From an uncultured Flavobacteriales bacterium (lineage in GTDB: Bacteria > Bacteroidota > Bacteroidia > Flavobacteriales_E > Vicingaceae), in the NCBI GenBank assembly GCA_913048175.1, contig CAJWVX010000014.1, forward strand, positions 1-37,526: a DNA stretch of 37,526 nt. The letters are read 5' to 3'. The notes under the pieces were generated by a model. It was given only the letters and a program-made list of their open reading frames with translations, made no database searches and was not told the DNA's origin. The first letter of the stretch is position 1, and every line of letters starts with the position of its first letter. A program made the translations under genes and the position numbers. This document shows, one piece after another, positions 34,327-37,526 of the stretch.

Positions 34327-34699
34327 ACGCTAAGTTTATTTAATAATAGTTTATATCCTAAATTAATTTATAATTCCCTTATAGAATAAAACCGTTAAAA
34401 CACTACACACAAAATCGTTACAAAAAAACCTAATTCAGTAGAGATCTTATTCACATTTATTTGAGAGTGAAGATAAGTTACCGTTCACAATAAAAAAGTG
34501 ACCGTTAAATGAAAAAAATAGCTTTTTCATTTTTCTATCCTCATAATGTATATTTTTAACTAAAATATAACAGTGCAACATATCTTCATTTGTAGTCGTT
34601 TGTAAACTGTAATATTTTAATGAAATTTAAATCTTAACCCAACAAAAGTAACGGCTATAACTAATATTGAACTAAATTAAAAAACAAAGCCTATAAGCT
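34327..34699. other. Non-coding stretch before the cassette array
   Basis: No useful reading frame. ACCGTT appears three times (in about 34390-34510), twice beside a GTTCAC/GTGACC inverted pair. A weak AT-only hairpin ATGAAAAA/TTTTTCAT lies at 34509-34530, before a short T-run. A minus-strand TACTTTTG lies near 34645 without a gene behind it. Compositionally this marks the change from core genes to the array. Confidence 0.45.
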
Positions 34700-34740
34700 G
34701 GGTATATGTCACAAGTGACACATACCCAATTGTTAGCAAA
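34700..34740. repeat. 28-bp palindrome and first cassette core site
   Basis: GGGTATATGTCAC (34700-34712), AA, GTGACACATACCC (34715-34727) is an inverted repeat with 12 of 13 pairs. It runs directly into TTGTTAGCAAA (34730-34740), whose exact complement is found after the gene that follows (35652-35662). It could be an attachment-type boundary, the end of a lost cassette, or an operator. Confidence 0.6.
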
Positions 34741-34746
34741 CATAAA

Positions 34747-35646
34747 ATGAAGATACTCTATATTATAATATTAACTACAGTGATTTCAGTTACATGTTAT
34801 GGTCAAGAATTTCCTCCACAAAAACTTGAGCAATTCGACTTTACTTCAATTGAAACTAAAGTTTCCGCTAATCAAAAACTCAACATACTGAAAAGGTTAG
34901 TTTTTTCGGAGTATTTAATGCCAACAGAATTTAAAACTACTGAATCTTATGATTTTGAAAATTACCACCTTTTAGATTTTAACGCAGATGGGAAACTTGA
35001 CATTATTTATGATGGAAGAAACCCCATGGGAATAGAAACTAATAATGTTGTTTTCTTCCTGAATAGAGAAGATTCATTAATACCAGTAATTAAGTTGAAT
35101 GGAGATTTTACGAAAATTGAAATACAAAAGAGTCAACTTGTAGGTTTTCAGCTACTTAAATCACCTTGCTGTGCTAATTTCATCTATAGAATCGAGGATT
35201 ATAAATTCAGTTATTCTAACGATTGTTTTGAACCTATAAATGGCAATCATGAATATTATAAATATTGGTACGGTCAAGTAAATGACTTTGAATTTTGTGT
35301 TTCTCTAATTAGTAAATATGCCTATGTAAAGAAGACAGAATTTCCTACGAAGATTGAATTTAATAGAAGTTCAATTGTTACGAGTAAGGTCTATTTGACT
35401 CCAAAGCCGTCTGAACCATCTAATATAGATTTCAAGGAATATAAAGTGGCATTCAATTATATGGACAACAAAGCAATATCTCAATTGCCAGAAGGAACAA
35501 TCTGTGAAGTTTTATCCGAAAAAATGAATGAAAAAGGTAATACATTTTGCTTTGTTGTATTAGTACTCAACGAAGAAGAAAAAAACTATATGAATCGTAT
35601 TAAATTCAAACATTATGGTTGGCTAAATAAGGAGAAATTGAAGTGA
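34747..35646 (+). CDS. Secreted protein with Ca-binding-like motif and SH3-like tail (cassette 1)
   Basis: 299 residues. A signal peptide is likely cleaved near residue 19 (SVTCYG, QE). LLDFNADGKLDIIYDG (Asp77, Asn79, Asp81, Asp85) matches the DxNxDGxxD calcium loop of FG-GAP/VCBS and EF-hand-like modules. The C-terminal ~100 residues start VYLTPKPSEPSNID and end YGWLNKEKLK, a bacterial SH3-like layout (short beta strands, final Gly-Trp). A Cys pair CC occurs in the middle (SPCCANF). The gene fits tightly between its two core sequences: the ATG is 6 nt after one and the stop 5 nt before the other. Function unknown. Confidence 0.75.
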   Translation: MKILYIIILTTVISVTCYGQEFPPQKLEQFDFTSIETKVSANQKLNILKRLVFSEYLMPTEFKTTESYDFENYHLLDFNADGKLDIIYDGRNPMGIETNNVVFFLNREDSLIPVIKLNGDFTKIEIQKSQLVGFQLLKSPCCANFIYRIEDYKFSYSNDCFEPINGNHEYYKYWYGQVNDFEFCVSLISKYAYVKKTEFPTKIEFNRSSIVTSKVYLTPKPSEPSNIDFKEYKVAFNYMDNKAISQLPEGTICEVLSEKMNEKGNTFCFVVLVLNEEEKNYMNRIKFKHYGWLNKEKLK

Positions 35647-35651
35647 AAACA

Positions 35652-35897
35652 TTTGCTAACAATCTATATATAATATGCCTTGTTGCGAGCATTTTAGCTT
35701 TGCGAAACTTGGGCAATTAATGCCATAATTTTTGCTAATGCTTTTTAATAACAAATTAGCGAGCTGCATTCTCGCTTTGTAAATTGACAAGGTTGTCGTT
35801 ACTAAGTTGTTGCAGTAGCGGGGAATCCTCACAAAAATTATTACTTTTAAGCATTGAACAAACTAAACGCACATTTCATATAGTTGCGTTGGGCAAT
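35652..35897. repeat. attC-like 246-bp repeat, copy 1
   Basis: Begins with TTTGCTAACAA (core of cassette 1) and ends with GTTGGGCAAT (core of cassette 2, 35888-35897). Shared with copy 2 are TTGCGAGC at 35683, CCATAATTTTTGCTA at 35723-35737 and a 26-base identical block at 35827-35852. ATAATTTTTG pairs with CAAAAATTAT across ~100 bases. Inside lies the hairpin GCGAG/CTCGC (35759-35763, 35771-35775). The whole can fold as one nested imperfect palindrome. Confidence 0.75.
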
Positions 35898-35911
35898 ATA
35901 AAAACACTGAA

Positions 35912-36667
35912 ATGAAAAAAATCATCTACTCCTTATTAATTATAGTATTTACTTCCTCTTGTGCCTTTCACCAAGGAATGATGACTGGTAGTGCATCTAT
36001 TTCAAACGGAAAATTCTCTATTGTTGATTTCGCCACTGGTACGGCAACCACTAAGCAGATATTTGGTATTGGTGGTCTAAATAGTGACGCTCTAGTGTTA
36101 GAAGCAAAAAGAAATCTATACATAAATCATCCACTAAAAAGAGGGCAAGCGCTAGCAAATCTAACAGTTGACTTTAAGCGAGAATTTTACTTTATTATAT
36201 TTAAGACAAGAGTAACTATCACTGCAGAAGTTGTTGATTTTAATCTAGCTCCAACAGATCAAGCATTTGAACAAATCAACAAAAAAATTATAAGAAGTAT
36301 GCCTACAAATCTTCGAAATTTCAACATTGGAGAAATAATTTTAATTACACTAAACGACAACAGAAAAGATGCTAGGATAATCGGATTTAAAAATGAAACT
36401 GTAATTGTTCAATATAACAGTAATAATAATTTATTAAAAACCAAAAAACTTAATCTTAATAAGATATTCAAGACAAAAATATCTTCAAAAAACATTGAAC
36501 TCTATGGTTACCAAATCAACCAGGTTGTCCAGTTTGAAACTGATAACTTTATAAAAAAAGAGGGGAAAATAGTCGGTCTAAATAATACTCATGCTTGGGT
36601 TGAATATCAAAATATCAAGAAATTAGATTGGATTTCAGTTACATTAGCAAGTTTAGAAAAAGAATAA
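35912..36667 (+). CDS. Lipoprotein with two Tudor/SH3-like repeats (cassette 2)
   Basis: 251 residues. The lipobox TSS-Cys17 predicts a lipoprotein. Residues ~25-125 (VDFATGTATTKQIFGIGGL, then DFKREFYFIIFKTRVTITAEVVDF) resemble small Bacteroidota lipoproteins of the DUF6567 type; that family name is from memory. After it come two similar ~45-residue beta units at about 137-182 and 200-246 (ARIIGFKNETVIVQY and GKIVGLNNTHAWVEY), a Tudor/KOW-like pattern. A fusion of an unknown domain to ligand- or sugar-binding barrels is possible. It starts 14 nt after its 5' core and ends 4 nt before its 3' core. Confidence 0.75.
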   Translation: MKKIIYSLLIIVFTSSCAFHQGMMTGSASISNGKFSIVDFATGTATTKQIFGIGGLNSDALVLEAKRNLYINHPLKRGQALANLTVDFKREFYFIIFKTRVTITAEVVDFNLAPTDQAFEQINKKIIRSMPTNLRNFNIGEIILITLNDNRKDARIIGFKNETVIVQYNSNNNLLKTKKLNLNKIFKTKISSKNIELYGYQINQVVQFETDNFIKKEGKIVGLNNTHAWVEYQNIKKLDWISVTLASLEKE

Positions 36668-36671
36668 AAAC

Positions 36672-36917
36672 ATTACCCAACAAGCTTTATATTGCATTTA
36701 GGTTGCGAGCAGTTTAGCTTTTTGACAAGTTGGTCAGTTAGCACCATAATTTTTGCTATCAGTTTCTAGCAACTATTTAGCAAGTTGCATCCTTGCTTTG
36801 GGCTTGGTAAGGGTTTACTTCTTTGACAATGTTTTGCTTGGGAAGCCTCACAAAAATTATTACTTTTAAGCGTTCAAGCAACTTTTCAAACGCAACATAC
36901 AGTTGTCATTACCATAC
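36672..36917. repeat. attC-like 246-bp repeat, copy 2
   Basis: Begins with ATTACCCAAC (core of cassette 2) and ends with ATTACCATAC (core of cassette 3, 36908-36917), giving the same 246-bp length as copy 1. Shared blocks: TTGCGAGC at 36703, CCATAATTTTTGCTA at 36744-36758 and the 26-base block at 36846-36871. The inner hairpin is GCAAG/CTTGC (36780-36784, 36792-36796), so both sides have changed together relative to copy 1. Confidence 0.75.
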
Positions 36918-36929
36918 ATACTGCTTTAG

Positions 36930-37406
36930 ATGCCAAGAATTGAAATTCGAACAGAAATTAATGCTGAAAAGGAGATTGTTTTTGATCTTTCCAGAAGTAT
37001 TGATTTGCACAAAATATCCACAGAAAAGACAAATGAGGAAGCAATTTCTGGAATAACAACTGGGTTAATTGGAATGAATGAAAGCGTAACTTGGAGAGCA
37101 AAACATTTCGGATTTTATCAAAACTTGACATCAAAAATTACTGCTTTTGATAGACCTAATTACTTCGCTGATGAAATGTTAAATGGAGCATTTAAAGAAT
37201 TTAAACACGAACACCATTTTACGAGTCTTAATGGAAAAACAATAATGACCGATTATTTCGATTACAAATCACCTCTCGGAATATTAGGAGAATTAGCAGA
37301 TTATTTATTCCTTGAAAATTATATGACTCGCTTATTAGAAGATAGAAATAGAATTATTAAAGAATTTGCGGAATCTGATAACTGGAAAAGTATATTAAAT
37401 AGCTAA
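36930..37406 (+). CDS. SRPBCC family ligand-binding protein (cassette 3)
   Basis: 158 residues, a full-length single START/SRPBCC domain. The first strand is PRIEIRTEINAEKEIVFDLSR; SVTWRAKHFGFYQNLTSKI and YFADEMLNGAFKEFKHEHHF are the central strands; MTDYFDYKSPLGILGELADYL leads into the long C-terminal helix (LLEDRNRIIKEFAE). This matches the SRPBCC proteins common in bacteria as small hydrophobic-ligand binders. No signal peptide, so it is cytoplasmic. An overlapping frame at 36823-37056 is rejected as a shadow. Ligand unknown. Confidence 0.88.
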   Translation: MPRIEIRTEINAEKEIVFDLSRSIDLHKISTEKTNEEAISGITTGLIGMNESVTWRAKHFGFYQNLTSKITAFDRPNYFADEMLNGAFKEFKHEHHFTSLNGKTIMTDYFDYKSPLGILGELADYLFLENYMTRLLEDRNRIIKEFAESDNWKSILNS

Positions 37407-37424
37407 ATAACTTGATGAACTAAC

Positions 37425-37526
37425 GTATGGTAACATTGTGTAAGTTACATGCTCTCTTAACTTAAAGTCTTTGCTTTCTAATGGGTTTTGTAGCGTGTTT
37501 CCCATAATTTTTGCTTGTGCTTTCTT
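37425..37526. repeat. attC-like repeat, copy 3 (cut by the window edge)
   Basis: Begins with GTATGGTAAC, complementary in 9 of 10 bases to the 5' core of cassette 3. CCATAATTTTTGCT at 37502-37515 is the conserved block of copies 1 and 2. About 100 of an expected ~246 bases are visible. Confidence 0.65.

Follow-up and report, generated by a model that had tools for sequence, protein, structure and literature searches.

A gene cassette array in a Vicingaceae contig and a putative integron-like capture system of the Bacteroidota with a XerA/IntI-like recombinase

We read the right end of the 37,526-nt DNA stretch analysed here (termed the window) as an array of gene cassettes belonging to an integron-like capture system of the Bacteroidota, a reading to which we assign a probability of roughly 0.88. 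Its recombinase would be provided in trans from another contig of the same genome, C143; the activity of this enzyme is inferred. The system is integron-like in its working, but it is not an integron in the strict sense, as a test that defines IntI fails. The window makes up the whole of contig C14 in a draft assembly of 3.5 Mb and 252 contigs (estimated contamination 3.4%), so that no sequence can be read to the right of its end. Most of it (2-26848) resembles a polysaccharide synthesis and export cluster, with glycosyltransferases, asparagine synthetases and a Wzc-like protein.

Cassettes and recombination sites in the window

Positions 34695-37526 comprise an attI-like palindrome followed by three single-gene cassettes, all of which point in the same direction. 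An integrase is absent from the window itself. The features, with the sequence upstream of the palindrome, are as follows:

34662..34669, plus strand: weak -7-box-like sequence TAATATTG (consensus TAnnTTTG), read from the sequence, upstream of attI
34695..34732, plus strand: attI-like primary site, AAGCT, palindrome GGGTATATGTCAC-AA-GTGACACATACCC (34700-34727) and AATTG
34733..35888, plus strand: cassette 1 including its attC; gene 34747-35646, 299 aa, no Pfam match
35651..35897, plus strand: attC-like site 1; R'' 35651-35660, R' 35888-35897; member of the repeat family, folds with R''/R' and inner stems
35889..36908, plus strand: cassette 2 including its attC; gene 35912-36667, 251 aa, DUF6567 (Pfam)
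36672..36917, plus strand: attC-like site 2; R'' 36672-36681, R' 36908-36917
36909..37526, plus strand: cassette 3, attC cut by the contig end; gene 36930-37406, 158 aa
37425..37526, plus strand: attC-like site 3, incomplete (contig end); R'' 37425-37434; CCATAATTTTTGCT block common to sites 1, 2 and 3

The original prediction had described three single genes, each flanked by a complementary pair of cores of its own, and this is what we observe, with all three in one orientation. The start core of cassette 1 (GTTAGCAAA) and its R'' (TTTGCTAAC, ending at 35660) are complementary over 9 bases in a row. The ends of cassette 2 (GTTGGGCAAT/ATTACCCAAC) match at 9/10 positions and fit GTTRRRY/RYYYAAC, as had been proposed, and those of cassette 3 ((A)TTACCATAC/GTATGGTAAC) likewise reach 9/10, with a conserved A/G mismatch past the core (TTACCATAC/GTATGGTAA). 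The gene of cassette 3 has only a weak polyketide-cyclase-like Pfam match below the cut-off. Measured from core to core, attC sites 1 and 2 span 247 and 246 bp (spacers of 228 and 227 bp; stop-to-ATG gaps of 265 and 262 bp), and the claim of repeats of exactly 246 bp is thus correct to within one base. The shared middles that had been noted correspond to conserved blocks of 74-77% identity in the two sites. The third site, taken to start at 37435, is truncated where the contig ends. The sites were also thought to be about twice as long as a usual attC, which describes those of the window but cannot be generalised: spacers in relatives amount to only 53-154 bp.

Aligned copies begin with NNNYAAC-AAGCTTTATATTGCATTT and end with AAACGCAACATACAGTTG-NN-RTT, and R''-L'' pairs with L'-R', which is the layout of integron attC sites. 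The base preceding TT is part of the upstream site, and the sequence from TT onwards belongs to the next cassette; G|TT is the crossover point in integrons. According to our proposal, each circular cassette would bring its own complementary R''/R' pair, and because it does so, both ends would stay with the cassette after insertion and the middle would look like a repeat. None of the attC and attI sequences examined scored above the gathering score of an Rfam family.

The interpretation as integron cassettes was largely right, but it had missed the attI-like palindrome at 34700-34727 that heads the array. We predict the crossover at this site between 34732 and 34733, the segment 34695-34736 reading AAGCTGGGTATATGTCACAAGTGACACATACCCAATTG|TTAG. 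Beyond the two complete attC sites of the window, the genome contains 15 further copies of the repeat, several of them at contig ends, and the expectation that the same repeat would recur with different genes between its copies was met. In total we count 17 attC copies and about seven attI-like sites. Contig C49 (L009) carries four attC copies at intervals of 4-5 kb; the ORFs between them reach about 1100 aa, unlike single-gene cassettes. That the array in the window is still mobile is an inference.

The recombinase and its linkage to arrays

Three tyrosine recombinases of the genome score above the Pfam cut-off. One of them, the 392-aa integrase on C143 (L034:130-1308; domains PF00589 and PF13495), has a palindrome nearly identical to that of the window directly 3' of its stop codon (AAGCTGGGTATGTGTCACTAGTGACACATACCCAATTG|TTGG). 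It had been suggested to look for a tyrosine recombinase, either IntI- or XerC/D-like, to the right of the window; the integrase turned up on this other contig and does not qualify as an IntI. Its best NCBIfam match is XerA (NF040815; 220.9 bits versus a cut-off of 220, other family members 190-227), whereas the integron integrase model TIGR02249 yields 185 bits versus a cut-off of 265 (other members 191-211; a true IntI used as control in the same test, 389.6). In an alignment to IntI4 (PDB 2a3v), about 43 residues are missing from the C143 integrase, and the missing region is the one that defines IntI (PMC9668308). The additional IntI-specific domain required of canonical integrons is not present. 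On these sequence grounds, we class the enzyme as XerA/IntI-like and not as an IntI. In a phylogenetic tree the recombinase family clusters with XerA-like enzymes and IntI falls outside on a long branch, which leaves the branching order unsure.

The enzyme further carries an extra N-terminal domain of about 75 aa, the structure of which is confidently predicted (pLDDT 92). Fold comparison gave weak similarity to XPB-DRD (Z 6.2) and HARP (Z 4.3), neither of which stands out, and there was no credible match among PDB sequences. The domain was found in 67 of 395 genomes of the phylum, a rough measure for the prevalence of this recombinase type, not of arrays. XerA/XerC-like recombinases (NF040815; PDB 5hxy, 4a8e) are the best-scoring family and the best match in sequence and fold, but differ in lacking the N-terminal domain and the linkage to cassette arrays. 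A 123-aa ORF with cysteine motifs and no Pfam match lies head to head with the integrase (L034:1370-1741, plus strand).

Relatives were found by scanning named genomes with the integrase as query. In members of the same genus and family, the integrase gene is followed by the same kind of palindrome, and in other genera by arrays. Those behind related integrases in Flavobacterium enshiense, Algibacter onchidii, Seonamhaeicola aphaedonensis and Rufibacter have the same anatomy; Winogradskyella ursingii and Aequorivita sinensis contain fewer copies. In Algibacter onchidii, a Flavo-1 RNA (RF01705) is located directly upstream of the integrase (L069:9844-9922, minus strand).

This co-location of integrase, attI-like site and arrays bears on two other explanations. 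The array could be a CALIN, with classical attC sites left clustered after a true IntI of a canonical integron had built it, in which case the XerA-like gene would be unrelated. The attC architecture, the G|TT crossover and the GTTRRRY-like cores all match integrons, and the window has no integrase. Yet none of the 41 genomes searched encodes an IntI above the family cut-off, and palindromes and arrays are found behind the XerA-like gene, which makes this explanation unlikely. It is also conceivable that the XerC/XerD pair of the host moves the cassettes, with the extra recombinase as a mere passenger, considering that the genome encodes two other Xer-type recombinases. A passenger would not explain why the linkage recurs over genera and families, and we regard this alternative as highly improbable. 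In the reading we prefer, the XerA/IntI-like recombinase would join attC sites, placed at the 3' ends of single-gene cassettes, with attI-like palindromic sites by cutting at G|TT; its role as the catalyst is inferred.

Cassette ends, strand preference and attI-like sites in related genomes

Each of the genera with arrays has an attC family of its own. The shorter cassettes mostly contain one plus-strand gene with a stop codon a few bases before R''. Among 51 cassettes, end complementarity was 10/10 in 20, 9/10 in another 20 and 8 or less in 11. It exceeded that of mismatched pairs in five of six groups, with permutation p values of <=5e-5 in the same-genus relatives, F. enshiense and Rufibacter, 0.0005 in Algibacter and 0.0015 in Seonamhaeicola. 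The exception was the genome of the window, where complementarity taken alone was not significant (p 0.15, n=5 cassettes, four of them long or decayed, several of 3.6-5 kb). We also looked for cassettes shared among environmental genomes of the genus, and rejected the sole long match (75%), which is not within a cassette in the second genome.

The attC sites show a bias towards the bottom strand. Mismatches past the core turn into G-T wobbles on the bottom strand only in 44 cases and on the top strand only in 4 (p 1.5e-9), and the bottom strand of reconstructed attC sites was the more stable one in 28 of 30 (p 2.6e-6). This is the polarity of integron attC sites, which are used as folded bottom strands (PMC8618304), and the attC described here would most likely work in the same way; that the single-stranded form is the substrate is inferred. 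Neither of the two complete attC copies of the window clearly favours one strand (top and bottom -33.3 and -30.6 for site 1, -30.3 and -32.1 for site 2).

The attI palindrome keeps its shape in relatives and changes its letters. In 18 sites, 10 of 13 pairs have two-sided changes and pairing holds in 90% of cells, a result that was not reached by any of 500 shuffles. The inverted repeat could nevertheless be a dyad protein site instead of a hairpin, which is not excluded. A covariance model gave 82 matches in 12 of 14 genomes of the genus, seven of the places being in the genome of the window; two genomes (G003 and G007), unlike most of the genus, had neither an attI-like site nor a strong integrase match. 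Where an attI-like site adjoins an integrase in the contexts examined within the genus, the gene ends 42-50 bp upstream of the crossover. Most attI-like sites, including that of the window, have no adjacent integrase. The idea that such orphan sites are integrase remnants was rejected, with no integrase sequence found alongside. Among 25 attI-like sites whose first gene is closed, there are 13 at which this ORF terminates at a 9-10/10 complement of its start core, a value reached by 4% of mismatched pairs (permutation p <=5e-5). A single genome would hold several dispersed attI platforms together with one or few integrases.

Incoming cassettes would land behind a promoter just upstream of attI. 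The weak -7-box-like element of the window is a possible cassette promoter, and promoter function is inferred here as elsewhere. At 15 of 20 homologous sites the same region contains a perfect TAnnTTTG (the Bacteroidota -7 box), usually about 25 bp before the palindrome. Beside integrases, this box mostly overlaps the end of the integrase gene, so that the predicted promoter and the 3' end of the gene would coincide at these loci.

With integrons, the system shares single-gene cassettes in one orientation, cassette-internal complementary R''/R', the G|TT crossover, attC sites with R and L stems and bottom-strand bias, an attI and a predicted promoter heading the array, and genome-specific attC families. 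In contrast to integrons, its recombinase falls short of the IntI cut-off, lacks the IntI-specific insertion and carries an additional N-terminal domain; the 3' end of the integrase gene faces attI, and several dispersed copies of attI, a palindrome that covaries, are present per genome.

Resistance cassettes on plasmids

The recombinase gene next to tet(X3) on pHH1107 and Acinetobacter plasmids (xerD/tnpF) encodes a relative from the same family (43.5% identity), and a palindromic attI-like site with a -7 box is situated between the two genes. Contexts such as Acinetobacter ISCR2-xerD-tet(X)-res have been reported without treating xerD as a cassette integrase (PMC7530245, PMC8693923); another study found no integrons next to tet(X14) and asked whether XerD mobilises tet(X) (PMC7473080). 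The pdif modules of Acinetobacter plasmids are small gene modules, too, and thought to be moved by tyrosine recombinases, but they are delimited by 28-bp sites composed of two 11-bp arms plus a 6-bp spacer (PMC7530245) and have neither a folded attC nor an attI. A literature search retrieved no description of the present system; coverage of subscription papers and preprints was limited, and an earlier description is not excluded.

A Sphingobacterium plasmid carries tet(X2) with 10/10 complementary ends and a complete attC. On a Riemerella plasmid, the order is lnu(I)-relE/HTH-blaOXA-tet(X)-estT-phosphotransferase-APH(3'), with attC-like sites in between. Ends matching at 9-10/10 were found for tet(X), aadS, ere(D), OXA-347, lnu(I), estT, APH(3') and others, and those of erm(F) match at 9/10 as judged by eye. 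The ends of tet(X3) and of one blaOXA do not match, and the contexts of tet(X4) and tet(X6) contain no complete cassette. The plasmid end scan tries many positions, and 20% of mismatched pairs also score 9 and 3% score 10; in view of this high chance level, the weight of the argument rests on breakpoints.

Identical tet(X), aadS, ere(D) and estT cassettes occur on Bacteroidota plasmids behind different neighbours, and similarity breaks at the predicted G|TT. For tet(X), five different upstream sequences all break at |TT. Downstream of the OXA-347 attC comes tet(X) in Riemerella and a different sequence in Myroides and B. thetaiotaomicron, again with the break at G|TT. The exchange of identical cassettes at this position is observed, and the crossover rests on comparative breakpoints only, not on biochemical evidence. 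It remains to be considered that the repeats are 3' UTR or MITE-like elements merely lying between unrelated genes, in line with their palindromic nature and their number. Neither cassette-specific complementary ends nor identical cassettes with flanks breaking at G|TT would then be expected; this explanation is contradicted for the system as a whole, where we give it next to no credence, and could hold only for decayed copies, e.g. some of those on C49.

Returning to capture by the XerA/IntI-like recombinase, this system also appears to lie behind the assembly of known antibiotic-resistance genes on plasmids, tet(X), aadS, ere(D) and erm(F) among them. We consider it probable that it represents a second integron platform, common in Bacteroidota, with a Xer-clade recombinase that lacks the IntI domain and acts in trans on many attI sites dispersed over each genome, and that resistance genes including tet(X), erm(F), aadS, OXA-347, ere(D), estT and lnu(I) were assembled as cassettes there before they spread to Bacteroides, Riemerella and, for tet(X), Acinetobacter. 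This suggests that the IntI domain is dispensable for cassette capture, and in this way the proposal that integrons arose from Xer recombinases becomes testable. The system likewise offers a specific explanation, open to testing, for how tet(X) came to be mobile next to xerD, the question raised in PMC7473080, and a reservoir that can be searched for resistance genes before they arrive in pathogens.

A mobilizable plasmid of Pontibacter kalidii, pls1 (L185), combines a complete integrase, an attI-like site and cassettes beside tra (transfer) genes. On plasmids of B. thetaiotaomicron, Myroides, Riemerella and B. fragilis (L189, L190, L191, L192), erm(F) is inverted across an attC shared with another cassette, as we would expect if the folded site were used on the other strand.
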